NCBI GenBank assembly: GCA_017405375.1
Contig: JAFRAO010000016.1
Span: 78,206 to 142,205 of the forward strand
Direction of reading: 5' to 3'
Source of the DNA: a bacterium
Lineage (GTDB): Bacteria; Cyanobacteriota; Vampirovibrionia; Gastranaerophilales; Gastranaerophilaceae
DNA: 64,000 bases
This document shows, in pieces, positions 392 through 22,600 of this stretch. The notes beneath the pieces are model-generated. The model was not told where the DNA came from and searched no databases. It saw only the letters and a list, made by a program, of their open reading frames with translations. Made by a program: the position numbers and the translations under genes. Every line of letters starts with the position of its first letter. The stretch's first letter is position 1.

Positions 392-459
392 TTTATACCG
401 GAATCATTACAGATTCTTAACATTTTTGATTATAAAAAAATGTGGGCTATTATGTAGTT

Positions 460-2028
460 ATGGAAAGTGGAAAAATTGTTGTCGTAGATGATGAGCAAAT
501 GGTTACATCTGCTTTTAAAGCTCTTTTGAAATTGGAAGGGCTTGGTGAATGTGTAACTTTTAATAACCCCATAGAGGCTGTTGAATATTTAAAATATAAC
601 TGCCCAAGTATTATTATATCTGATTTTATAATGCCGGAAATGAACGGTTTGGAATTTTTGACAAAAGCAAATGAAATGTATCCGCACGTTAGTAAAATCT
701 TGCTTACTGGTTATGCAGATAAAGAAAATGCTATAAGAGCTATTAATGAAGTCGGCTTGTATAAATATATAGAAAAACCTTGGGATAACGATGATTTGAT
801 TATAAACATTCAAAACGGAATTGAGAGAACTAATTTGATTGAAAAGTTGAATGAAAAAATCAGCGAATTGAAAGTTGCAAATACAAAATTAGAAGAATAT
901 TCTCAAAACTTGGAATCTTTAGTCGCAGAAAAAACAAAAGATTTAATTCAAGCTAATTCTAAATTAGAAAGTATTATTGCAAACTGTGCAGATGGTATTA
1001 TCATCGTCGACAATAATCTTAAAATAGAACAATTGAATCCTGCTGTCGAAAATTTATCAGGTTTGAGCGAAACAAATTTGCTAAATCATAATGTATCTGT
1101 ATTGTTGAATTCAGATAATATAAAACAAATTTTGGATGATTGTATTGAAAATGGCGAAGCAGTATTGAGAGATTGTTATATTCAAAACAAATTAAGCGAA
1201 AAACAAATACCTGTTGAGGTTAATTTTGCCGTAATAGCAGGTAATGAAGAAAATAGTCAGGAACAAAAATTTGTCGGTGTAATTCGTGATGTAAGCGTTC
1301 AAAAAGAAACAGACAGACTTAGAGATGATTTTATTGCAACATTAACTCACGATATGCGAACTCCTCTTACTGCATCTATTCAAATGTTGGATTTCTTCTT
1401 AGACGGTACTGTAGGAGAATTAAACAACAAACAGCATATGTTGTTATCCACAATGAAATTTAATAACGAAGGGCTGTTGGGGCTGGTAAACAGCTTGTTG
1501 ACTGTATATAAGTTCGATGCAGGAAAAGTTCAGCTTATGAAAAGTAATTTTAGTATAAAAGAACTTGTAACACAACGTTATCAAGAATTGAAACCTCTTG
1601 CTGATAAGAAAAATATTGATTTTATTATAAAGTTTGAATCAGATGAGGATTTAATTATTAATGCCGACAGACAGGAAATAGGACGTGTAATTGCTAATTT
1701 GTGTGGCAATGCAGTTAATTATACTAATGAAAACGGAAAAATAGAAGTATTTATTAAAAATCAAGAGGGTGATTTATTATTTTCCGTATCTGATACAGGA
1801 AACGGTATTCCAAAATCGGATATTCCTAATTTATTTAAAAGATTTTCTCAAGGTACAAGTAAAAAACGTTCTACAGGTACAGGTTTAGGTTTATATTTAT
1901 CCCGTCAAATTATTGAAGCTCATGGCGGAAAAATATGGCTCGAAAGTAAAGTAAATCAGGGTAGTGAATTTTCATTTATATTGCCTGAGGTTGTAGTTAA
2001 ATCCGTTAAAGAAAGGTTGTCAGTATAA
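460..2028 (+). CDS. Hybrid response regulator / PAS / histidine kinase
   Basis: About 522 residues from ATG 460; a GTG at 442 would add six residues, and no clear ribosome site separates the two. Order of domains: receiver domain (about 3-120, acidic pair D10/D11 and phospho-acceptor D55), coiled coil (130-165), PAS-like domain (165-285), HisKA with phosphorylatable His in LTHDMRTPL (H297), then HATPase_c with N-box NLCGNAVNY, DTGNGIP and a GTGLGL box. There is no transmembrane segment, so it should sense or relay signals in the cytoplasm. An N-terminal receiver suggests phosphorelay or feedback control. Its stop overlaps the start of the next gene by one base (TAATG), so it is almost certainly coupled to the regulator at 2028. 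The signal is unknown. Confidence 0.93.
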   Translation: MESGKIVVVDDEQMVTSAFKALLKLEGLGECVTFNNPIEAVEYLKYNCPSIIISDFIMPEMNGLEFLTKANEMYPHVSKILLTGYADKENAIRAINEVGLYKYIEKPWDNDDLIINIQNGIERTNLIEKLNEKISELKVANTKLEEYSQNLESLVAEKTKDLIQANSKLESIIANCADGIIIVDNNLKIEQLNPAVENLSGLSETNLLNHNVSVLLNSDNIKQILDDCIENGEAVLRDCYIQNKLSEKQIPVEVNFAVIAGNEENSQEQKFVGVIRDVSVQKETDRLRDDFIATLTHDMRTPLTASIQMLDFFLDGTVGELNNKQHMLLSTMKFNNEGLLGLVNSLLTVYKFDAGKVQLMKSNFSIKELVTQRYQELKPLADKKNIDFIIKFESDEDLIINADRQEIGRVIANLCGNAVNYTNENGKIEVFIKNQEGDLLFSVSDTGNGIPKSDIPNLFKRFSQGTSKKRSTGTGLGLYLSRQIIEAHGGKIWLESKVNQGSEFSFILPEVVVKSVKERLSV

Positions 2029-2705
2029 TGTCAAATATCAGATTATTGGTAGTTGAAGATCATTTAATGGTAAGAATGGGACTTTCCATGATGATGGAAA
2101 AGATTGATGGAATCGAGCTTGTTGGTGAAGCAGAAGATGGACTTGACGGAGTTAATAAAGCAAAAACTTTGCTGCCTGATGTTGTTTTAATGGACATAGG
2201 TTTGCCGGAAATTGACGGTATTGAGGCAACTAAAAGAATTAAAGAATTTAATCAGGGAATTAAAATTTTAATGTTTACATCACGTGATAGTGAAGACGAC
2301 GTTTTAACAGCATTTGAGGCAGGTGCAAACGGTTATATAATGAAAGGTGCTAATATTGAACAAACGGAAAGAGCTATTAAATCGGTAGCTGACGGCACCG
2401 GGTGGTTAGATCCTCAAATTGCTAAGATAGTTTTGTCTAATATCCAAAGAAATAATAAACCTATAATAAATAATTCTCAAACAGGTATAAATTATAAGGA
2501 TGGAAAAAATCTTTACGGATTAACAGAAAGAGAGATGGAAATTTTATCTTTGATGGTGGAAGGTTTGTCAAATCCTCAAATAGCTGAAAAATGTGTTATA
2601 ACAAAATCTACTGCAAAAGCACACGTTCATAGTATTCTTCAAAAACTTTGTGTTTCAAAACGTACAAAAGCCGTAAGAATTGCTATGGAAGAAGGCCTTG
2701 TTTAA
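2028..2705 (+). CDS. NarL/FixJ-family DNA-binding response regulator
   Basis: The 225-residue protein has a receiver domain (residues 3-120, acidic pair E10/D11 and phospho-acceptor D56 in LMDIGLPE) and a C-terminal LuxR-type helix-turn-helix (about 160-225, starting LTEREMEILSLM and including the recognition region TKSTAKAHVHSIL). It should bind promoter DNA when phosphorylated, most likely by the hybrid kinase whose stop codon overlaps its start by one base. Its own TAA overlaps the ATG of the secreted protein that follows, again as TAATG, so kinase, regulator and secreted protein form one coupled operon. Confidence 0.95.
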   Translation: MSNIRLLVVEDHLMVRMGLSMMMEKIDGIELVGEAEDGLDGVNKAKTLLPDVVLMDIGLPEIDGIEATKRIKEFNQGIKILMFTSRDSEDDVLTAFEAGANGYIMKGANIEQTERAIKSVADGTGWLDPQIAKIVLSNIQRNNKPIINNSQTGINYKDGKNLYGLTEREMEILSLMVEGLSNPQIAEKCVITKSTAKAHVHSILQKLCVSKRTKAVRIAMEEGLV

Positions 2706-5277: not shown

Positions 5278-5910
5278 ATGATAGAAAAAATTAAAAATTT
5301 GCTAAAACTAAATACAAAAACGAAATTAACTGTTGAAACACAAATAAACGATATGTTTAAATCTCTTACAAGCGATGAGTTAAAAATTGCACTTGGTGAT
5401 GATTTAACCTTTATTGCACCGAAAATTTGTTATCGGATACAGGAATTGAGAAAGAAAATAAAAGATGATAACGGATTTATAATGCCAACAGTCAGGTTAT
5501 TCGACGACAATAAATTACAAGAGAATGAATACCAAATCTCTATTCGAAGTAAAAAAATATTTACGGGATATACGGTCCCAAATGAAGATTATGCTTGTAA
5601 TGAAATTTTAAATAGTCTGGAAGCAAGCTGCATGGATAATTTAGAGCTTGTATTTACAAATGAATTAACCGAAAAGTATATAAATGCCGTACAATCTCAA
5701 AACAGTTTGTTAATTTGGAACGTATCGCATTTAGTGCCGGTTACGGGAATAAAAGCTATATTGATAAACTTATTAAAAAATGGAAAGTCGTTAAAAGATA
5801 TAACATTCATATTTGAAAAAATATGTGAAGCTGCTACTCAAGAAAAGGACTGGTTTTCGATGAGGGATCCGGAAAAAATATCCAAGATAATTAATTCTCA
5901 AATTATATAA
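5278..5910 (+). CDS. Orphan soluble FlhA/SctV-like cytosolic domain
   Basis: The 210-residue protein has no signal peptide and no membrane segment. Residues 30-100 align by eye with the start of the cytoplasmic domain of FlhA-type flagellar and type III export gate proteins: RIQELRKKIKDDNGFIMP corresponds to the family pattern RI.giRkk...elGF..P, then RLFDDNKLQENEYQISI corresponds to .irDNl.L.p.eY.I.i.g. Residues 125-190 follow the next part (HLVPVTGIKAILINLL, then a K-S-L-K-D-I stretch), matching LVP....l.kvLqnLL.E.v.IrD. The membrane half of FlhA and its C-terminal subdomain are absent. In flagellar systems this domain docks chaperone-substrate complexes. No other export gene is adjacent, so its partner is unknown. 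A degenerate fragment of a lost flhA is the alternative, but the intact frame argues against that. Confidence 0.75.
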   Translation: MIEKIKNLLKLNTKTKLTVETQINDMFKSLTSDELKIALGDDLTFIAPKICYRIQELRKKIKDDNGFIMPTVRLFDDNKLQENEYQISIRSKKIFTGYTVPNEDYACNEILNSLEASCMDNLELVFTNELTEKYINAVQSQNSLLIWNVSHLVPVTGIKAILINLLKNGKSLKDITFIFEKICEAATQEKDWFSMRDPEKISKIINSQII

Positions 5911-6698: not shown

Positions 6699-7010
6699 AT
6701 GAGTGAAATATTTTATACATATTTAATATTAACAAAAAACGACACATTATATTGTGGATATACAAACGATATAAAGCAGAGGTATTATAAGCATTTAAGC
6801 GGGACAGGTGCGAAATATACGAAAGTAAATAAACCGTCAAGGCTGGTTTATATAGAATCGTTTGACAGTAAATCCAATGCGATGAAACGTGAAAATGAGA
6901 TAAAGAAATTAACCAGACGGGACAAATTAAAGATTGTAGAATTGTTTAACCGAACAAAAAATGAGTTATATTATAAGGCACTGGATATAAATAAAATGTA
7001 TGAGCAATAG
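6699..7010 (+). CDS. GIY-YIG nuclease superfamily protein (UPF0213-like)
   Basis: I choose ATG 6699 (103 residues), since the upstream extension would begin inside the divergent gene and adds only a Tyr/Ile-rich stretch encoded by AT-rich spacer. The protein is a single GIY-YIG domain: YTYLILTKNDTLYCGYTND carries the two beta-strand motifs, followed by R (KQRYYKH), a G-T-G-A-K-Y-T segment, the conserved E in LVYIESF, and KREN.IKKL near the end. These short proteins resemble the nuclease domain of UvrC and homing enzymes; their biological role is mostly unknown. Confidence 0.9.
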   Translation: MSEIFYTYLILTKNDTLYCGYTNDIKQRYYKHLSGTGAKYTKVNKPSRLVYIESFDSKSNAMKRENEIKKLTRRDKLKIVELFNRTKNELYYKALDINKMYEQ

Positions 7011-7615: not shown

Positions 7616-10600
7616 ATGAAGAATAGAATTACGAAGAAGTTATCATTGGTAGTATCAGTTGCGTTTTTAACAATACTGACAATGCTGTATTTTATAAATA
7701 TCGCTTCGGCGATTACTTTGGACCAGCTGAATGCTTCAAGACTAAAAACAACAATTTTTGAATATACAGCTACCGGAAATAAATATTTTAGTATTTCCGG
7801 CAGTGATATTACTGTAAAATTGCATGACTTTGGATATGATTATTCTTCTTCTTCTGGTGCTGGGTTATGGATAAATAATCCTTCATCAACAGCTATTGGT
7901 TATACTTATATTGGTTCTGGGTCGTTATATAATAACAATGGTAGTAAGACAAATTTCTATAATTTTTATAATGATGATGTCGAAAGTAATTATTATATGT
8001 ATGGTGATTCAAATAATGTTTCTTATCAGTTTAGGACAAATCCTACTCAATTTAATATTTTTAGAAATTTTAAAAAAAAGTCTGGAATAGAAACTTTTTT
8101 TACAAAATTAGTTCAAAATGGTTCAATCACTTCAGATTCTAAAACAAATGCGGATGCTTTTTTAAGTAAATACAATGTTGGTGCTGGTAGTGGTGAAAAT
8201 AATTATGTAAGAATATTTAATGGCACGAGTATATATGGATCTGATACGAACGGATATGATTACAAAATAACAAATAAGAAGGACAATACATATTACTATC
8301 TTGTTACGGGTACTCATAGAGAAAATACTGCTTATAATTTAACCCCTGGTTATCAGGATGTTAAATATGTTGATAATATAGATCGTGGTACTGTGTATGT
8401 AACTAATTCTGTTAGCGGATCAAATAAAATGAGTAAAGGTTACAGATTAAGATCTATCAATAATAGTGATATGTCTTTACGTAATTATGGTGTTATAGGT
8501 GATGGCAGTAATAGTGGTGCATCTTTGGATGGTATTATTACTGGTAGTAAAACTAATGGACAACAAGTTGTTTTCAATACAGGCACGATTTATAATTTTA
8601 ATTTAGACTTCACGGGTAATTATGCTAACAGCTCTAATGGTTTTGTTTTTGATATGTTGTATAATAGTGGTACGATTGGAAATTTTGAGAGTTCGATAGT
8701 TGGAAATTATGCTAGTGATTCTATCATTTACAGTAGCAATATGATAGAGTCTTTGAAGAGTGATTTTGTGTCAAATTCTGGCCGTTATACTTTATATAAT
8801 TCAGGAACAATAAATGATATTGCTAGTAATTTCATTGCAAATAGTTCTACAGGTGGTGGCGGTGCTATATATAATATTGGTACTATTGGTACTGATACAA
8901 CTTCAAGTCATATAAGTGGTATATTTATAAGTAATACTACTTCGAATAAAGGCGGTGCTATATATAATCTAGGCACAATTAATGGTCCGATAGGTGGAAC
9001 GTACTTAGGTAATACTGTATCAAGTACAGCAGATACCGATGGTGGTGGTGCGATATACAATGCAGCTAACAAAACTTTAAATGTTGGTAATGCTACATTT
9101 GGTACAAGTGGTAGTGACACAGATGCAAACCATGCGAAATATGGTGGTGCGATATATAATGCAGGAACCTTAACTACTGCATCAGGCTCCAGATTTTATA
9201 ATAACTATGCAAGTACATCGTCATCAAGTATGAATGGTCAAGGTGGTGCAATATATAATGCATCAACAGGTAATATAACAGCTTTAGATGGTACTTATGT
9301 CGGTAACAAAGCCGATAAAGGCGGAGCTATATATAATGCTAAGAAGACTAGTGGTAGTACTACTGTTACAAATATAAATGGTGTATCAGGAACATTTACA
9401 TCAAGCAGTGCAACAACAAGCGGTGGTGCTATATATAATGAAGGCAAAATGGAATCTGTAGGCGGCACATATACATCAAACAGCGCAACAACAAGCGGTG
9501 GTGCGATATATAATGCGGCCAATGCAAGTATAGCTTTATCATCAGCAAAATTTGGGGGTTCATCAAGTTCTACTTATGCAAACCATGCAAAAAATTATGG
9601 TGGTGCGATATATAATGCCGGCACATTAGCAATCAGTAATTCTAGATTCAACTACAACTATGCCGGTACATCATATGATAGTGCAACCGGTTTTGGTGGT
9701 GCGATATTTAATGAATCAACAGGCAGTATAACAGCTTTAGATGGTACTTTCACAGGTAATAAAGCAGCTAAAGGTGGTGCGATATATACTACAAATGGTG
9801 TTACTGTGAATGGCGGGACAACATTTACAGGAAATATTGCTAGTGAGGGTGCTGCTATATATAGTGAAGCCGGAGTTGTTAACTTACTTGCAGATACCGG
9901 CAATATAACATTTACAAATAATAATAGTACGGGTACTGTTTCAGGAACAGGTTCAGGTATATATTCGGGTGCTGGTTTGTTGCTTGCTGCAAATGATGAA
10001 AAATATATATCTTTAAATGACAGACTTGCTATAAATGGTACAGTTCAATTTGGTAATAGTACTGTATCAGGTGGTACTGTTAAAATGGGAACTAATGTAT
10101 TTACCTCCAATACTATTCCAGGTTCAGTTGAAGGCGTTACATTTAATACTATTGATATAGTTAATGATATGACTTTAGATTTGGGTAATTCTCAGGCAGG
10201 TGATATTATAAATATTACAAATAAACTTATGACCACCGATAGTAGTAAAAAATTGTCATTGTTATTGGATTATGATCCGGGTGCTACTACTGATGAGCAT
10301 GGTACTATAGATAAGATATTACTTTCTGATACTGTTACTGCAACTAATATAAGTGGTTCTCCATACGTATTTTTAGAAGATATTAATATAGTAAATCCTT
10401 ATACTTCAGAACAAGTTACTTCTGAGTTAGATAGAACGATTAATTATATTTCGCAAGAAAGTAATGATTATACGAATTATGATGTTAGAAATAATATTAA
10501 AGTAAGAACAACGACTGATGGTAGTATAGCAAAAAATATTAATGGTGTTATCTATAGATTCACACCTGCTGATGATGTACATCGTGGTCTATTAAATGTA

Positions 10601-13600
10601 AATATTTCTAATGGTGGTTATTTAAGTATTTACGATTTGGAAGATTATTACAATAAAGTTGTATTAACTGAAAGCTTTACTCCAATAGTAAATTATACTG
10701 CTGATAAGAATAAAGTTAATCTAACTATACCTGAAGATGATACAACTACTCATATTGTGCCAATTAAAAATAGTATAGGTGTTCTGTATGGATATATGTA
10801 TAACAACTTTGTTATACCTGGTGAGATAGATCTTACAAAATTTGATGAACATGGCGATGGTGAGTATTATACACTTAAAGATGGTGCTGGAGACTATAAT
10901 AGTGTTGCCTATATATATGAAAAAGTTGGTGGTAAGTATCATGAATACTTTGATGCAAATGCAGGTGATGTCAACGGTGATTTAGCAATGTTGGCATCTG
11001 GCAGTAGATCGTTAACTGTTGAAGGTGTTAAAGAAGGAGATAGATTAATTTCTGAAGTTCACGGTTATAACATTGATGATCCTTCAATTAAACATAAGGG
11101 TATAAATATTTCCTCTGATGGTCAAAAAATTTTCAAACTTAAAAATATTGCAAGCTATGATAATTTTACGGATTATGCATTGAGTATTGAAAATGGTAGT
11201 AGATTCAATGATTTAGAAATTGAAAATGTTACTTTTAAAGATAATGATGTAGATATTATTAATAATAGCTATAGGGCGCCTCTTAAATTTAAAGGAACAA
11301 ATGTTTTGGATGTAATTAAAGGTGACGGTCATTCCTATATTTTAAGTGGAACTACTACTATAAAAAAATCTATTAATCAATCAGATTTAGTTGTTGATAA
11401 ATCTACTTTATTATTAGATAATGCTAAGTTTGGTAATAAAGTAAATGATACGACATATAGCAGCATAAATATTAATCTAACATCAGCAGATAGTATTTTA
11501 GAATTGCGTGATTATTATGATTTGGATTTAGAAACAAGTTCTATTATACCGGCTAGTATTAATAATGTTTCAGTTCAATCAACACGTGTAAATTTTGGAC
11601 GTACAAAATTAACAGGTAATTCAAATATTATTTTGGCAGATGTAAATGATACAGCTTTTTATGATACAGAAATTTACAATAATGCAACATTAAGAGCTGT
11701 TGCAGGTCAATTAGGCGGATCAATAAAAAATGCCGGTAAATTGTATTTATCAGGCAGATTGGATAAAATTGTTGACAATGTTGTTGATTATTCTGATCCT
11801 GAAAATCCTGTTATTATGGATGGTGGTACTACATATGTTAATGGCAATTTAGAATTTCAAGCAGTTACTGATTCGAATGGTAATATTACTCAGCAAGCTG
11901 GTGTTGCAGGTACATTGGACATGCAAGATAGTGCTAATACTTTAGCATTATTAGGTTCTAATGTTGGATATAGTGTTGGTACATTAAAAACAACTGGTGC
12001 TACATCTGATAGTCAATCTAAATTATTAACTACTGCTTTAGCGCAAGGCTATAGTGGAGAAGGTTCTTATTCAGAAAATTATACGGGTAACGTTGTTGCT
12101 AGCTATATAGAATCAGATAATTATGTAAATAACCCAAATATAATAGTTACTTTGAATGGTATCGAAACTGCTGTAACTAATGTTTTAGGCGATACAGGGA
12201 TGGGTAATTATAACAGATTAGAAGGTGATAGTAAAACATATCAATTCCGTATATTAGCTAATGCTGATGGTTCTCGACATGTTTTTGGAAGTAACCAAGC
12301 TCTATTTATTGATAATCCTGATAGTATTGAGAGTGATGATAAACTTGTTGGCAGAACAGCAGGCAGCAAAAAACTAAGTGCTCAAAGCGTTAATTGGTCT
12401 GAAAGATTTGGTGATGCTAATTGGAATGAGCATTATGAAGTATCAGGCTTGAAAGTTGTTGATTTAGGTAATGAAGAAAATCATTTATATACCGGTGATA
12501 TTGAATTTACCGCTAAAAAGAAAAAAGAAACAGATTTTAAAGGTACTGATACATTAAGATTAGTTAATGCATTATTACCTGCAGATTATTTAGAAACAGG
12601 TTATGATGAATCTGAAAGAGAATTCAAAGCAGATGTTGCAGGTTCTACATACAAAGTTTCTGATGCTCTTTATAATGAAACAACTCATGCATATGATATT
12701 GAGGACTTTACATTAGACACAACTGTAGGAACTGTAACCGTTGATGGTAATTCAGACTATGAAAACAATGTAATATCAACATTAGATATGAATAATAAAG
12801 GTGGATTTACTGTTAATAGTGATGATACTACTTTAAATATTAAAAACTTAAAAGTTGAAAATATGCTTGATGCTGAAGGTGGCTTTATTGCATTAAACTC
12901 AGGTACAGTTAATCTAGAAAATGTAGTATTGGCTGCAACTCACGTTGTTTCTGAAGTTGATACTCCTTATGCTAATGCAGTAATCAGAAATAATTCAGTT
13001 ACTGATGAGGCAGGTAATTATGGTTTGAACTTAAAAGGTACAAACAACTTAGGTGCAGGTGTTGCCGGTGCAGGTACAACAAATGTACTTAACGGTGAAA
13101 CAACAGTTGATAGTATTGCACAATCAGTAATCAATATATCAAATGGTGCAGCATTAGTTGTGGATGGTGGAACACTTTCTGCTACTAATGGCGTTGCAAA
13201 TGCCGGCACCTTGACATTAAATGATTATAATGGTGGTACAGCTGTAGATAGCTGGTCCGTAAAAATTACTGGTGATGGTACAACTCAATTTAAGGGTACA
13301 ACAGATATTACGTTGGATACTGCAAATACAGGTACAGAAGAAAATCCTGTTTATACATATAGCATAGCAAATAATGTAGAAATACATGAAACAGTAGATA
13401 CTACTGATCCAGATAATCCTGTTGTTACTGGTGTTGCAACATTAACAGCAAAAGGTGAACAATTATTAGGTAATATATTTAATGCCGGAAAATTGAAATT
13501 ATCCGGAAAATTAGATAAAGAAGTTAAAGCGTTACCTGGTTCGGTTGGTACCGGCGTAACAGAAGTTAACGGCACATTAACATTTGCTAAGAATACCGAT

Positions 13601-16600
13601 GCAGGTACTCAAGCAGGTGTTGAAGGCACATTGGATATGGGTCGTGATGCTGATAATCCTAATAAATTAATATTGACTGGCTCAAATGTAGGATATTCAG
13701 TTGGTAAAGTTAAAGCAGGTACAAAATCTTTAGATCCTGAAGTAGATTCTGTTCGTGCAAAATTAGATACCTCTCTTACTAAGAGTGGTGTTACAATGGT
13801 TGCAAACACTATCAATTCTGATTATTACGATAGAAATGGTGCTAGTCAGGAAGCTCGTATAAGTTTATCTTCATTGGGTAACTTTGCTGATGCTTATGTA
13901 AGTGATGGTACTTATGAAACTATCGGTACAAAAACTCATCATCAAGTTACAATATTGGCTAATGCTTTAGGTGCTTCAACAATATTTGGTGCAGATGATG
14001 TACTTGGTATTGATTCTTCAATAGTTAAAGAAGCTACAACTTCTGACTATAGAACTGCAGGTGGCAGAAAGCTTTCTGATCATTCGGTTGATTGGACTGA
14101 AAAGTTCGGTAATGCTCAATGGAAAGATGTATATAAATTAGACGAATTAAAAGTTGTTAAGTTTAACAATCAATATACAGGTGATGTAGAATTTGATTTA
14201 ATAAAAACAGATGAAACAGATTACAGTGGTGTTGATACATTAAGATTAGTTAATGCATTATTACCTACAGAAGCTTTAGTAGACGATTATGATGAGCAGG
14301 TAAGAGAATTCATAGCAGGTGTTGCAGGTTCTACATACAAAGTATCTGATACTGTAGGTGCAGGTGAACCTGCTGAAACATTACCTGGTACTTTAGGTAT
14401 AACTGTAGGTACATTAACTGTTGATGGTAATTCAGACTATGAAAACAATGTAATATCAACATTAGATATGAATAATAAAGGTGGATTTACTGTTAATAGT
14501 GATGATACTACTTTAAATATTAAAAACTTAAAAGTTGAAAATATGAATGATGCTGAAGGTGGCTTTATTAAATTAAACTCAGGTACAGTTAATCTAGAAA
14601 ATGTAGTATTGGCTGCAACTTACGTTGTTTCTGAAGTTGATACTCCTTATGCTAATGCAGTAATCAGAAATAATTCAGTTACTGATGAGGCAGGTAATTA
14701 TGGTTTGAACTTACGTGGTACAAACAACTTAGGTGTTGGTATCGACGGATCTGGTACAACAAACGTTTTAACAGGTCATACTACATTAGCTAAGATTAAT
14801 CAAACAAATATTAACATTCTAAAAGATCCTGCTGATGGTGCTCCTTTAACTACATTAACAGTTAGTGATCTTGGTAACTCTGTTAATATCACTAATGATA
14901 GCATTTTAGAATTGTATAATTATGTACCTGCCACATTGGCTAAAGATATCAAAACTTCTGATAGCTCTGCAATGGGTACAACTCAATTTACAGGTACAAC
15001 AAATGTTAAATTGGGCGATACTACTGAAATTGATAACCATGTTGAAATAGCTTCAACAGCTCAATTAAAAGCAAACGCTGAACAGTTATTAGGTAATATA
15101 TCAAATGCCGGTAGATTGTATTTATCTGGCGAATTAAATAAGACAGTTAATAACTTGGGTACTGATACTGACCCTCGCACAACGTATGTTGGTCGTGATT
15201 CAGAAAATAAGAATTTAACATTTGCTGCTGTTGCTGACACAAATGGTAATGTTACAAGCAAAGCAGGTGTTGAAGGCACATTGGATATGGGCAATGCTTC
15301 TAATACCCTAACATTAACAGGTGTTGATGCAAGTGATAACTTTATAACAGGTTTTGATGCAGAGGAACATCCAATTTCCGAAGTCCTAGATTATCAAGTA
15401 TCAAATGTTGGATACTCAGTTGGCACATTAAAAGCAGGTACAGCTGATTTTGATAATCCTGCAAATGATGTTCGTGCAAACTTAGTAACAACTCTAAGTA
15501 AAAATCTTGATGTAAATTATACAAATAACCGTGATATGGTTGCTAATTATATAGTCGCTGATACTTATGATTATGCTGGCGGACATCATAGTGCTCGTGT
15601 TCTTTTATCATCATTAGATGGATTAGATAAAGCTTATCAAAAAGTTTTAGGTGATAAAGTTGAATCTGTTGATAATGTGTCTTCACATAGAATTACAGTT
15701 TTGGCAAAACCTGATGACGATACAGAATTTGCAGTTATGAGTTTCGGCGCTGACAAAGTTCTTGATGTAAATGGCGCAATAGAAAATTCTACATTCGACA
15801 TTAACAGAGAATTTACTGATAAACAAATTGAAGACCTTGATGCTGTAAAATGGACTGATCGATTTGGTACATTTGGCTTAAAGGAAACTTATAAAGTAAG
15901 TTCTATTGGCGTTGTAGATTTAGGCGATGATGACAATCATAATTATACAGGTGATGTAGAATTTAATTTAACTAAGACAGAAGAAGAATCTTTTGGTTTA
16001 ACTGATGATACATTAAGAATAATGAATACTCTTCTACCTGAAGACTTGATTAAAGATGGTATTGCAAGAGATCCAAGATCATTCACTGCAAATGCAGCAG
16101 GTGAAACATATAAAGTCGCAGATAAAATTACTGTAATAGATGAAGACGATAATGTTTCAGAAGTAACTAATTTTGATTTAGGTGTTACTGAATCAGGAAC
16201 ATTTACTATTGATGGTATATCTAAAGAATCAACATTAGATATGAATGGTAAAGGTGGATTTACAGTTGCAAAAGCTGATACAACTTTAAATATTAGAAAC
16301 TTACAAGTTACAAATGTTAAAGATGAATTAGGCGGATTTATAAAAACATTAGCTTCTGCAGGTGAAAATTCATCTATCAATCTTAAAAATGTTGATATAG
16401 TTCAATCTAATACAGAAACTTCAAAAGCAATTTCAAACGTTATTACATTGAATTTGGAAGGTACAAACGATTTAGGTAACGGAGTTGTTGGAGAAGGTAC
16501 AACAAACGTTGTTAGTGGAAAAACAACAGTTGGTAGTATTAAACAATCTGTAATCAACATATTTTCCGGTGATCCTGCTGCAACATTAAAAATAAATGGT

Positions 16601-19600
16601 GGAACAATTTCTGCTGGTACAGTTGCAAACGGTGGTATATTAGAATTATTTAATTACGATGGCAGCACAGCCGATACACAAAAAGATTTGGAACAAAGTA
16701 TCGGTAATAACGGTACAGCTGTTGGTACAACTCAATTTACAGGTACAACAAATGTTAGATTGGGTGCTGATAATGTAATCAATAATAACGTTGAAGTTAA
16801 TGCAGGAGCTAAATTAAGAGCTGCAGCTGAACAATTAAAAGGTACAATTAAAAATGCAGGTACATTAGCTCTATCAGGAACATTAGATAAGACAGTTAAT
16901 AAATTAAATGATGTTCCGGGTACAACAGAAGTTGATGGCGCTTTAACTTTTGCTCAAGATACAACAAAAGGTACTCAAGCAGAAATTAAAGGCACATTGG
17001 ATATGGGCAATAATGCTAACACTTTGACTCTAACAGGTTCAAAAGTTAATTACTCAGTTGATAAAGTTAAAGCAGGTAACAAAGCTACAAATGTTCGTGC
17101 AAACTTAGAAACTTCGGTTACTAAAGTTGTAGAAACAGACCCTAGTGTAGAATATCATCTTGACTTGGTTGCAAACACAATCAGATCAAATAATTATGAT
17201 GGTAACAATGCTCGTGTTGGTTTGTCTTCATTAGTTAATATAGCTGAGGCCTATATAAGCGATGGTACTTATGAAACAGTAGGTACAGAAACTAAACATG
17301 AAATCAGAATATTAGCAAATGCTGATGGTACTCGAGCAGAATTTGGTGCAGATAAAGTATTGGATAAAGCTAGTACGTTCAAAGATACTTATGAAGCAGC
17401 ACATACTGGTGGTGGTGATATATTAGATAAATATAATGTAAAATGGACTGATTTATTCGGCAATGCTGAATGGACAGATACTTATAAAGTAAAAGACTTA
17501 GTAGTTGTAGATTTAGATGATAATAATGAAGATGATATTCATAATTATACAGGTGATATTCGTTTCACATTAGAAAAAACAGCTGAATCAGATTATAGCG
17601 GTACTGATACATTGAGATTAGTAAATGCTCTTGAACCTGATGATTTTGTTGATCCAAATTTAATTCGAACTACAGAAAGAACATTCACACCAAATAATGC
17701 AGGTGATACTTATGTTGTTAGATCTACTGATGTTGAAGATTTAGGTGAAACTGTAGGTACATTTACTGTTAATGGTAATTCAGACTATGAAAACAATAAA
17801 ATATCAACATTAGATATGAACGGTAAAAAAGGATTTACAGCTTCAGATAAGACAACAGCTTTAAATATTAGAAATATAAAAGTTACTAATATTAAGGATG
17901 AATTAGGCGGATTTATTTCGTCAAGAACTTCAAATTCGAACATCAATCTTGAAAATGTTGAATTAGTTCAGGCTGATTCTGAAACTTCAAACCCAATTTT
18001 GAATGTCGTTACATTGAATTTGACAGGTGATAATAAATTAGCTAATGGTATTAATGGTACAGGTACTACTAATGTTAATGGCGGTACTACTGAACTTAAA
18101 AATATCAGACAAAATAACATTAATATAACAGATGATAACGCTACATTAGTTGTAACGAAGAATATCAACGCATTAACAAGTCTAAAGAACAGAGGTACTT
18201 TAGAATTAAGAAATTATAACGGTGGTGATGCAGGTACACCTGTTGAATTTGCTAATAGCGTGAACAGATATGATGATGTACAAGGTACAACTAAATTTAC
18301 CGGTACAACATACGTTGTATTGAATGACAATAATAAAATTGATAACCATGTAGATGTTGTTGGTACTAATGCTACATTGAAAGCAAAAGCAAACAACTTA
18401 TTAGGTTCAATTAATAATACAGGTACTTTAATCCTTTCAGGTTTATTGAAAGATAAAACTGTTGCAGGTAATGGTATAACTCAAGTTGATTCTAACTTGG
18501 CAATGGCAAAAACTACTAGAAATACAGGTGTTGACGGTACTTTAGACCTTAATAACGGTACTGTTGACTTTACTCAAGATGGTAATGCAGCTAATGTATA
18601 CAATATTGGTAGAGTAATTAATAATGGTACAATAATGATTGATGCTGATTTCTCAAACATTGGTGCTGGAAATAAAATTTCAGGTGATACGATTGCTTTA
18701 ACTTCGAATGATGTAAGCGGTAAAACTACCATTATGGTTGATGCAGTAAAATCTAACGGAGATTGGTCTACATTAGGTAATGGAACATACTATCTTCCTG
18801 TAATAACTAAAGAAACTGCTAATGCTACTGAATTTGGTAAAATTGCCGAAGGAAAAGATGTTGAAATAAAATCAACTGATGTATCAGAAAGCATTGATGA
18901 TTATATTATAAGAATATATGACAGTAGTGTATGGCATAATACAAATGCTCAACCTAGTGATGCATCTAATCCTAAAACTATGTCTCATAAAGCAGAAGTT
19001 CCACCAGAAGATCCAAATGCAACAGATCTTGCAGTAACTTACACAGTTGCAGAAAAAGTTAATAATACAGGTAATAGTACTGCAGATAGAACAAAAGCTC
19101 TAAACAAAGGTAATATGAGAAATGTTTCTTGGACTAAAAATAGTGATATTTTAGTTGAAAGATCTCATGTAACCGGTGATTTAGCTGTATCTACATATGT
19201 TGAAGGAACTAATGAATATGGTATAAAATACGATGTTACAAATGTTTCAAATGATCAGAAAAATGATAAATATGCTATTGACGCATTAGCTTATTTGAAC
19301 CAAACTGAAGATTTTGGTAAATATTTAAGAAATGACGATGGTAGTGTATCATATGACAGATCATATATAACAGACGATAATACAGCTGCTCATACATTGT
19401 TAGCAAACATTGGTGAAACAGCTCAAGGTAAATACACTGTTCAAGGTGGTTCTGATATCGCTGAAATCGGCGTTCAAGAAAAAGTAATGCCTACAAATTC
19501 AAAAATTTATATGAATGGCCATACCGGTTTTGAATTGAACAATCCGGCTTCAGAATTGTTATTAGAAAACTTACATATTAAAGATGTAGTTGATGACGAT

Positions 19601-22600
19601 GGAAATCATGGTAATTTCTTGAGAATATCATCTACTGCAGCTGCAGGTCACAGTGAAACAAATCCAAATGCAACATTGAGAAATGTTATATTTGATAATC
19701 CATATGATGATCCTGATAATTATGACCCACTAACGCACAGACCTGTCCAAAATGACGGATTCCTTGCTTTAGATGGTAGAAATGAATTCAATTCGGGTAT
19801 TACAGGTTCAGGTACTACTGTCGTTGATAAACCTGCAGGTAGTGCCGGCAGTATCACATCATTAGATGCTATTGATCAAGGCAAAGTATATGTACGTCCT
19901 GGTGCTAGATTAATTGTAAGAGGTTCCGTAGGTGAAGGTACATCAATTGAAAATGAGCGTGATCCTAACGGTTCTGGTGAAACTACTTTAGGTGATGGTG
20001 GCGAAGGTTCTTCTACAACTAACAAAGGTGATATCACTGGTGGTGGTAGTACAGGCATTAATGGTGATGTAATTAACGAAGGTACAATTGGTACAGACTT
20101 GATTATAATTTATCCTGATAAATCATTAACATCAGATCCTGATAAGATTGATTCAATAATACATAGCTATGGCGACTATATTATAGGTGGCGACGGCGGA
20201 ACTATCGGCAGAGATGTTATCGGTGATAGCAATAACGGTGGTCGTGCATTAGACCCTGAAGATCCTTCAGATCCTACTTATAGAGCAATAGTTGGTCATA
20301 CATATGTACCTGTTGATACAACTCTAGGTAAAGATGGTGATCCTGAAAATGGAACCATAATGACAGGTGATGTATCTGTTGGTTTTAGACCTGGTCATGA
20401 CGATTCTAATTTAGAACCTGCAGGAAGACCATCAACACCTGCCGGTGAAAAAGGTGTTACATTCACTATTAATGATAGTGGTAATGTAGATGATGCAAGA
20501 AATCTTTACTTGGCAGATTGGTCAACATTAGACTTAGACCAAGGTACAAAGAAAAACCCTGTTACTGCAGGTAAAAAAGATAATATTAAAGCTAATATTG
20601 TAATCGCAAAAGATGATTTGGCATACTTAGAAACAGATTGGCAAGATAGTATATCTTCTATAAAAGGTATTGACTCTTCTATTCCTGCAGGTCCGGCTCA
20701 AGCTCCTGGCCAACGTCTTGATTACAGTACAAGAGTTGTAGATAATGCAGCTAAGACAGGTAAGTTAGATGTTGTATCCGTAAATATTGCAAATAATACT
20801 GCAAGTGCAACTGATGCTTCAAATGACTTTGTTAAAGCTGATGCAACAAATAAAGATCACGTTAGATTATCTCATTATATTGATTTGAAAACTACTGATA
20901 ATGATAACAGTGCAAATTATATAAGATATAATTCTAACGATGGCAAAATGTATACAAACAGAAAAGATTTAGCGGGTGCTGTTAACGCAAATTCAGCAGC
21001 TACTGAAACTACAGTATACAAAATGAAAAATAGTGAACCTGCTTCTACTACGGGTGCAGGAAACTTAAAAGCCGGTAAATTGATTGTATACGGTCAAGGT
21101 AATGATACAGTAACTGATATTCAATCAGGTGTGGATGTTGGTACTACAGCTCCTGCTCACTTAGTTGCAAGAGATGTGAATATTAAAGCAACACGTCCGG
21201 GTGAAGCAGCGATAACTGTTAGAGGCGGAAGTACTGCTACAATAATACCTCGTTCACAAGACCTTGTTGTATCATCTGAAAATGATAAATCAGTAAGATT
21301 GTTAGCTGGTGGTTCAAGAGCTACATTGAATGTAAATGAAGTAGATCGTCTAGCTCCGGAAAATCAAAATCATAAAGTAACAATCGAAAACGGTATATAC
21401 TCTGATAATAAAAATAACCTTGTAAACTTCAACAGAGGAACAGTTGATGTTAAAGGTGATGTTGAAAATGTAACTGCCAATGTTAATTCAACATTGTTAG
21501 GTGAAGAAGAATTAAGACCTGGCGCTACTCGTGGTGGTGTTACAACTCTTGTAACAAGAGTATCTGGTCATGATTCAGACGTTACTTATAACTTGAATCC
21601 TGGTGGTACATTAGTATACAACAATGACTCTACATTGTATGATCCAAACTATCATACATCTGCAGACAGATTAAATACAATGAACTTCAATGGTGGTACT
21701 TTGAGTACAGTAAATGGTACTGTAACTAACTTCCACTTGGCTAATATGGATTTAGGTAATCCTGGTACTGTATCTAACTACTTTGCTGATGTAGATTTAT
21801 ATAATGAAACAATGGATAAATTCACTGTTTCAAATCCTGTAACAGGTAGTGGTGCATTGAACGTTGCAGGTTTGAATTTGATTTCAGATTCAAAAAATCC
21901 TGTAACAGTAATTAACTTTACTGATGATCCTGTATTAATGGCAGCAACAAACTACACAGGCGGTCAACAGTTGACAGCTTTAGCTCCAATTTATAAATAC
22001 GATGTATCTTATAATAAAGGTGATGGTAACTTCACATTTGTTCGCTCAGGCGGCGGCGGAAACGGTGGCGGTGGCTTCTATCCATGGGGTGGCAACTCAT
22101 ACAACAGCTACAACCCTGCGGTTATGGTTGCTCCTGTTGCAGCTCAGTTAGGTGGATACTTAGCTATGGTTCACAACTATGATGATGCATTCCGTAATAT
22201 GGATATGTATATGCTAATGACTCAAAAAGAACGTCAAGCTATGAAGTACAATAACAAATATGCTTCAGCAGCGACTGATTCAATGGCATACTATCCTGGA
22301 TATGACAGAAATAGTAGTGCTTCAGGTTGGGTTCGTCCATCTACAACATTTGAAAGAGTTAACTTCAAAAATGGACCAAAAGTTAATAACATTGCTTACA
22401 GTACATTCGTTGGTGGTGAATCAAAAATGCATGATTTAGGCCACGGTTGGGACGGTATGGCAACAGGTTATGTATCATACCAAGGTTCGCATCAAAGCTT
22501 TGATAACGTAGGTATGTATCAAAACGGCGGTACATTGGGCGTAGTTGGTATGGCTTATAAAGGTAATTTCTTTACAGGTTTAACAGCTGGTGTTGGTGCT

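Follow-up and report, generated by a model that had tools for sequence, protein, structure and literature searches.

A conserved free-standing derivative of the FlhA cytoplasmic domain in the Gastranaerophilaceae, a candidate modulator of a second flagellar-type export gate

Introduction

FlhA/SctV lies at the core of flagella and injectisomes, where it is one membrane protein with a nonameric cytoplasmic ring of four domains (D1-D4). The window analysed here, meaning the whole stretch of 64,000 nucleotides, encodes a 210-residue protein that looks like part of this ring made on its own, which raises the question of what it is, where it came from and what a free piece of an export gate might do. 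A preliminary description of the sequence had recognised landmarks of the FlhA cytoplasmic domain (FlhA-C) in it and had suggested a decoy, adaptor or regulator of export, or a non-flagellar role. It had also asked whether a full flhA exists in the same genome; two full FlhA proteins were found, designated FlhA1 and FlhA2.

Results and Discussion

Gene, fold and domain layout

The protein, termed O210 (its relatives of the same type are referred to as orphans), has the following features.

5278..5910, + strand: orphan FlhA-C-like protein (O210 type) with linker anchor, D1 and D3, without D2, D4 and membrane part
5332..5367, + strand: FlhA-linker-like helix, residues 19-30, helical in the predicted model
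5353-5358, + strand: hydrophobic-aromatic pair M26-F27, at the place of the ring-anchoring Salmonella FlhA Trp-354 and the next residue
5368..5580, + strand: first part of D1, residues ~31-101, with G40-x-D42 at the GYXLI switch site and a Q81-E82-N83-E84 loop
5572..5589, + strand: D2 excision junction, residues ~99-104, with ~45-50 residues gone (FlhA2 430-478)
5584..5643, + strand: second part of D1, residues ~103-122, from the predicted model and alignment
5644..5907, + strand: D3, residues ~123-210, ending before D4, with the family motifs TNExTEKY and NGKS

The 210-aa open reading frame starts within the linker region of FlhA. It matches the FHIPEP profile (PF00771) at 63.1 bits against a cut-off of 29.1 (E 2.4e-17), residues 108-195 match the SctV model hrcV (1.1e-8), and the predicted fold matches FlhA and SctV strongly, with the model stopping at Salmonella FlhA 583 and YscV 591. 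The FlhA-C landmarks noticed earlier are therefore real, and no refuting result was found. The membrane domain, eight helices in FlhA/SctV, is absent from O210, in which the highest 19-residue hydropathy mean is 1.52 and falls within a D3 helix. The absence of a membrane segment and of the last FlhA subdomain, both pointed out in the preliminary description, is thus confirmed, and D2 is missing as well: by alignment count D1 and D3 are present in 27/27 orphan rows, D2 and D4 in 0/27. The pLDDT is 94-96 (blocks) across the D2 junction and low in the linker helix (block means 53 and 68).

O210 is a conserved free-standing piece of a flagellar-type export gate, derived from FlhA-C. Compared with FlhA-C (PF00771), it is a separate 210-aa gene without the membrane domain, D2, D4, the chaperone-docking dimple and a ring salt bridge; since membrane domain, D2, D4 and dimple are all missing, it is classed as an FlhA-C-derived variant and not as FlhA. 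It has the same fold as the cytoplasmic domain of SctV (InvA/YscV/SsaV), to which the hrcV match points, and shows the same losses relative to it.

Relatives and distribution

A search of 5.8 billion proteins yielded 366 candidates, with 33 proteins (query counted) at E <= 1e-3, all of 207-219 aa except one 138-aa piece; 24 columns are invariant among 32 aligned O210-type proteins. The orphan is present in 47 fetched loci, representing 27 distinct intact ORF sequences with the window's own counted, which refutes a truncated duplicate confined to a single strain. Ten chosen orphan pairs were compared for dN/dS: seven gave 0.026-0.230, two were saturated in dS, and one near-identical pair with few changes gave 0.41. 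On these substitution ratios O210 is under purifying selection.

Labels of 19 relatives are mostly Candidatus Gastranaerophilales, Cyanobacteria bacterium or uncultured bacterium, and the carriers are likely gut relatives of cyanobacteria. Two relatives (L043, L046) labelled uncultured Acinetobacter sp. were taken as mislabelled. In a family sample of 146 genomes, at least 11 encode an orphan, at least 3 a related protein of ~290 aa and at least 5 one of ~590 aa, a count resting on matches down to ~E 3e-17 that would miss weaker ones. A phylum sample of 386 genomes gave 19 matches at E <= 1e-22, all within the Gastranaerophilaceae, comprising 7 orphans, 4 proteins of the 290-aa type and 8 of the 590-aa type. 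Together, the family and phylum searches identified 14 orphan genomes with seven genus codes; G426 is a fifteenth, from a separate search.

Other spin-off types of the FlhA cytoplasmic domain

The 94-row alignment contains 16 FlhA1, 17 FlhA2, 19 490-aa, eight 590-aa, five 290-aa, two 240-aa and 27 orphan rows. D2 is present in every row of FlhA1, FlhA2 and the 490-aa type and missing in 42/42 rows of the other four types, while D4 is missing in 34/34 rows of the orphan, 290-aa and 240-aa types and kept in the remaining ones.

The 490-aa type (S490) is soluble, with all four domains, an extra N-terminal region and no membrane domain. A protein of this kind, judged by frame length and profile range, is encoded in 27/27 genomes that carry a tallied D2-less protein. 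The 19 distinct rows were those fetched, and the type also occurs in other families of the order (e.g. L052 8823-10292). In the window's genome its gene directly follows genes that we take to be bamA-like and skp-like. A literature search found no published name for a 490-aa free-standing FlhA-C of the Gastranaerophilales. The preliminary description had known of no free-standing version in this kind of genome; such proteins are in fact not rare in this lineage, as the 490-aa proteins and the 290-aa and 590-aa types show. NCBI already gives one relative, P0004, the name 'FHIPEP family type III secretion protein [Candidatus Gastranaerophilaceae bacterium]'.

The 590-aa type (574-595 aa) is a D2-less FlhA2-C joined to an N-terminus resembling protein X of the second export system described below (BLASTP 25% over 214 aa, 8e-10). 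At L024 712-2487 and L071 5042-6823 the X-like N-terminus is followed by hydrophobic segments and the D2-less FlhA2-C, with a histidine kinase gene 60 bp downstream. The 240-aa type consists of D1 and D3 with one hydrophobic N-terminal segment; genome G025 (L054 8037-10520, L075 3001-3750) encodes an orphan and two 240-aa versions, with 1.1 kb between the orphan and the nearer version. The 290-aa type (285-296 aa) is modelled with the same strand-helix order in D1 and D3 as O210, with pLDDT blocks mostly 81-90 there and an overall mean of 74.6. It is closer to FlhA2, sharing 44/77 D3 consensus residues with it, compared with 20/77 for the orphans. When a 290-aa member was used as query, 36 of 504 candidate proteins reached E <= 1e-3; 22 of them lack D2 and D4 (189-328 aa), and the 14 that have D2 may include contig-end fragments of FlhA2. 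P0062, of 363 aa, has D1-D2-D3 without D4. Three proteins of 358-361 aa (P0055, P0057, P0060) all start at one internal FlhA2 methionine (MQDLVN), which probably reflects gene-calling on fragments; an internal start yielding free FlhA2-C is the alternative. Other FHIPEP matches (G307:C9:41516-42175, G126:C112:3607-4488 and G039:C1:27892-28944) may be additional spin-offs, broken copies, or genes cut by a contig end.

The array could be read as decay, with O210 a functionless relic of an FlhA2 duplicate, as the losses look stepwise: D4 alone in P0062, D2 alone in the 590-aa type, and both in the shorter forms. Against this stand the 27 distinct intact ORFs, the 24 invariant columns, the low dN/dS in seven of eight unsaturated pairs, and excisions that fall at domain boundaries, which together make a relic hardly credible.

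Descent

On a tree of D1 and D3, all 78 non-FlhA1 rows form one clade (100/100), within which the orphans form a clade of their own (100/99) on a stem of 0.91 changes per column. This supports an origin of the orphans on the FlhA2 side over one from FlhA1, and O210 most likely derives from FlhA2. The 240-aa type is placed next to the orphans (97/96), a position that is unsure because both are on long branches. By the AU test, neither a single origin of D2 loss (p 0.261) nor descent of the orphans via the 490-aa type (p 0.374) was rejected.

Sites kept and lost

Salmonella sites were mapped through a HMMER alignment and residues were counted over the 94 rows. The FlhA/SctV linker is described as fitting into a D1/D3 groove of the adjacent subunit, a contact that the ring needs (PMC8166844, PMC8213127, PMC8635156), with Trp-350 or Phe-367 inserting into the neighbour's groove (PMC8213127); one passage of PMC9431611 names D1 and D2 for the linker instead. 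Salmonella FlhA Trp-354 aligns with Met-346 of FlhA2, and the anchor place reads M-Y in 17/17 FlhA2 and [MLI][FY] in 27/27 orphans. In the orphans the aromatic residue lies one place past Trp-354, in a stretch of low local model confidence, and its groove contact is a prediction. The second residue is also aromatic in the 290-aa (5/5), 590-aa (8/8), 240-aa (2/2) and 490-aa (17/19) types, and is Met or Leu in 16/16 FlhA1.

FlhA-C is the docking platform for chaperone-substrate complexes, with a dimple formed by Asp-456, Phe-459 and Thr-490 (PMC8166844). The dimple is intact in FlhA2 (D/E, Y/F, T/S in 17/17) and FlhA1 (D/E, F, T in 16/16). In 27/27 orphans the Asp-456 and Phe-459 positions are deleted with D2, and the Thr-490 position is Thr in 0/27. 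Across the four D2-less types the dimple is cut out in 42/42 rows and the third residue is Thr in 1/42, while in the 490-aa type it is changed by substitution, with the Asp kept in 18/19, an aromatic residue in 0/19 and Thr in 0/19. Loss of the dimple by two routes, D2 excision and substitution, is the pattern expected from selection for docking-dead subunits. FliJ, in turn, binds the linker and the D4 cleft (PMC8166844). The proposal that O210 docks export chaperones in the manner of FlhA-C is consequently not borne out, given that D2 is gone with two of the three dimple residues and that the third is never Thr. A decoy that binds export chaperones in the cytosol would draw on the docking role of FlhA-C (PMC8166844), yet it is very improbable given these dimple losses and the missing stalk-binding D4.

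Sites of ring contact are altered as well. SsaV rings are held by four salt bridges and by the linker peptide in an SD1/SD3 pocket (PMC8635156), and SD4 together with SD3 is reported as necessary for ring formation (PMC9163089). The SsaV pair E482-R563 corresponds to FlhA2 496/578, which is acidic in 17/17 and Arg in 17/17 FlhA2; it is acidic in 17/19 and basic in 18/19 of the 490-aa type, and acidic in 7/27 and basic in 11/27 orphans. In FlhA2 itself neither E488-R534 nor E502-R490 carries charge on both sides, so that these two pairs are uninformative for the orphans; E407-R567 was half mapped.

Eight residues are conserved in the orphans and not in FlhA2: D42, Q81, E82, N128, E132, Y134, G169 and K170 (FlhA2 numbering 362 D, 406 Q, 407 E, 500 N, 504 E, 506 Y, 542 G and 543 K). 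The first of these aligns with the GYXLI motif, so that the switch site reads GxD[LI] in the orphans, and 406-407 QE align with Gln-414/Pro-415 of Salmonella FlhA, beside which Cys-368 packs in a GYXLI mutant (PMC9431611). Since the orphan-specific residues fall at both sites, the switch region looks rebuilt.

These changes are the basis of the main rival to a role at the gate, namely that O210 works outside export altogether, the FlhA-C fold having been co-opted for a cytosolic role, as adaptor or in signalling, with a partner of its own that the residues invariant in this family would recognise. The long stem of the orphan clade, the eight orphan-specific residues, the altered switch site, the lost salt bridge and the low D3 agreement with FlhA2 would all fit such a role. 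The linker anchor, kept in 27/27 orphans, argues against it, as do the 290-aa relatives with their 44/77 D3 residues in common with FlhA2. On balance recruitment outside export is possible, though we doubt it.

A second export system and its co-occurrence with the orphan

The window's genome encodes two each of full FlhA, FliF, FlhB and FliP. System 1 comprises fliP-Q-R-flhB-flhA1 on contig C48 and fliF-G-H-I on C37 (FliP, FlhB, FlhA and FliF by profile, the others by look). System 2 is dispersed: fliE-fliF2-X-fliH2-flhA2 lies on C32 (L051 5707-11649; Pfam FliE, YscJ_FliF and FliH), fliP2, fliQ2 (both by profile) and fliR2 (by look) on C3 (L132 7183-9884), and flhB2 on C27 (L070 4212-5270). 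Protein X, of 335 aa, is encoded between fliF2 and fliH2, where fliG would normally lie, and does not match FliG in Pfam. A FliS protein (Pfam match) is encoded at G000:C32. By look at the sequence, the fliE-fliF2-X-fliH2-flhA2 block is also present in G006 and G227, both without flagellin.

Among 31 genomes, flagellin is found in 10/10 with full FlhA1 and 0/21 without; as these genomes are related to one another, a Fisher test on the counts overstates the association. The 21 genomes without full FlhA1 have FliF2 in 20, and FlhA2 is full in 19, cut by a contig end in G126 and missing in G045. These tallies indicate that system 1 tracks the filament and that system 2 is kept without it. G045, rated 99% complete, encodes a 490-aa and a 290-aa protein and neither FlhA2 nor FliF2; it either breaks the co-occurrence or reflects one gap in its assembly.

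The orphan co-occurs with FlhA2 of system 2. Full FlhA2 is encoded in 13 of the 14 tallied orphan genomes, and the remaining one, G126, has the contig-cut FlhA2 with FliF2 on the same contig; FlhA1 and flagellin are found in only 8/14. The presence of FlhA2 in all 14 also counts against a function of O210 outside export. In G039 and the untallied orphan genome G426, FlhA2-like matches are partial only.

For ACD20, Di Rienzi et al. 2013 give two flhA genes, of which one has the number right after fliH (PMC3787301). The same article describes the gut genome MEL.A1 as without filament, cap and outer-ring genes and reads this as possible ongoing reduction; its methods nevertheless name flagellin genes from MEL.A1 (PMC3787301). 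That a second flagellar-type gate outlasts flagellin and FlhA1 in gut Gastranaerophilales bears on how such flagellum remnants are read.

Genomic surroundings

In the window the O210 gene stands by itself, flanked by genes for DUF1015 and DUF386 proteins, and no export-gate Pfam match was found among its neighbours up to position 7010. A two-component pair lies 2.6 kb upstream, given here as context only.

442..2028, + strand: receiver-PAS-histidine kinase, with 58-69% identity to the kinase pieces next to the 590-aa gene in each of the eight loci fetched
2028..2705, + strand: LuxR-type response regulator paired with the kinase

Relatives of the kinase lie within 0.75 kb of the 590-aa gene in 8/8 such loci (identity taken over the pieces compared), and one further orphan, L044, has relatives of both kinase and regulator within 5 kb. 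Further downstream in the window, positions 7616-23140 hold a single repetitive 5174-aa ORF with an autotransporter-barrel-like end by sequence look.

No FlhA1 or FlhA2 ORF was found in the 47 orphan loci (flanks of ~1-6 kb or more), nor any FlhA-family ORF there besides the 490-aa neighbours in L049 and L086 and the 240-aa neighbour in L054. The 490-aa gene is near the orphan in 2/27 orphan rows from different parts of the tree, 9 bp away in L049 and 1.7 kb away in L086. Varied addresses, some next to kinase or regulator genes (window, L037, L044), would suit an adaptor or signalling protein outside export; adjacency to a 490-aa FlhA-C paralogue in two lineages speaks against one. By look, a 290-aa form and orphans of other genomes (pairs L046/L073 and L047/L073) have like genes nearby (CHASE2-like, aldolase, kinase; RNase G-like). 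Such common neighbours hint at positional orthology of the orphan and 290-aa types.

Within the window's genus the orphan has three kinds of address, that of the window, a neighbourhood with a 76-aa ORF (L031, L033, L034) and that of L054, so the gene has moved, or has been gained and lost. A terminase gene lies just upstream of the orphan in L033 (Terminase_3 1.3e-19). By sequence look, L031-L032 also hold terminase-like genes, and a portal-like gene is close upstream of the orphan within L031-L033; the window's genome has genes of the terminase/portal kind elsewhere too (L050 15611-18670). The terminase genes, the three addresses and the patchy distribution are what would be expected of a mobile-DNA decoy, a poison subunit blocking assembly of flagellar-type gates and spread among Gastranaerophilaceae by phage-like elements. 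The viral_contigs collection yielded no relative (none of 385 pattern matches was confirmed) and there was no PADLOC match; in addition, several orphan loci adjoin genes that we take to be housekeeping (gyrB-like, scpB-like). A mobile decoy is accordingly unlikely.

Proposed role

We tentatively propose, with somewhat less than even confidence, that O210 is a docking-dead modulator of the FlhA2-type export gate; that it binds there, and which way it would shift export, are both conjectural. O210 would attach by its linker anchor and D1-D3 face to FlhA2 or to the 490-aa paralogue, in the groove between subunits that the FlhA linker usually occupies. Without D2 and D4 it would present no site for chaperone-substrate complexes or for a FliJ-like stalk, and export might therefore be lowered or timed, the FlhA2 ring being interrupted, capped or diluted. 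The target would be the second, flagellin-independent machine rather than the flagellum, and the other D2-less types (~290, 240 and 590 aa) may do a similar job in other lineages.

The modulator reading draws on the retention of linker, D1 and D3 with a dimple broken in every spin-off type, on the co-occurrence with FlhA2, the placement on the FlhA2 side of the tree and the 490-aa neighbours in two lineages, and on the fusion of the 590-aa type to an X-like N-terminus and the purifying selection. Against it are the lost 496/578 salt bridge, the missing D4 and the orphan-specific residues, which may mean a new partner; the 20/77 D3 agreement and the lack of an FlhA2 gene in the 47 loci; the patchy spread (at least 11/146 family genomes); the 290-aa genome G045 without FlhA2 and FliF2 and the partial matches in G039 and G426; and the AU test, which rejects neither a single origin of the D2-less types nor a route via the 490-aa type. 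Among the roles first suggested, a regulatory or non-flagellar one fits best. O210 could be a decoy or modulator acting on the gate ring, whereas a chaperone-sequestering decoy is unlikely.

It is conceivable, though doubtful, that Gastranaerophilales more generally regulate their second flagellar-type export machine with a diversified set of docking-dead dummy FlhA subunits from separate genes, O210 being the most reduced plug. If true, this would be a new principle of type III export control, in which a gate is tuned by docking-dead subunits encoded apart from it. Separate genes for cut-down gate rings, each with its chaperone site broken, are unexpected in one bacterial family, and the spin-offs offer naturally occurring deletion variants for dissecting the part played by each of D1, D2, D3 and D4.

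Comparison with known systems

The internal-start products of SctQ/HrcQ offer a likeness, being a separate C-terminal piece of an export apparatus made beside the full protein (PMC8553256). They belong to the sorting platform or C-ring, whereas O210 is a separate, diverged gene derived from a gate protein, so the comparison is by analogy only. Set against SctV systems, the second system of this lineage has flagellar-type FliE, FliF and FliH by Pfam. A further comparison is the 490-aa FlhA-C, which like O210 has no membrane domain, falls on the FlhA2 side of the tree and combines an aromatic anchor (17/19) with an altered dimple; unlike O210 it keeps D1-D4 and the salt-bridge pair and has an extra N-terminal region.
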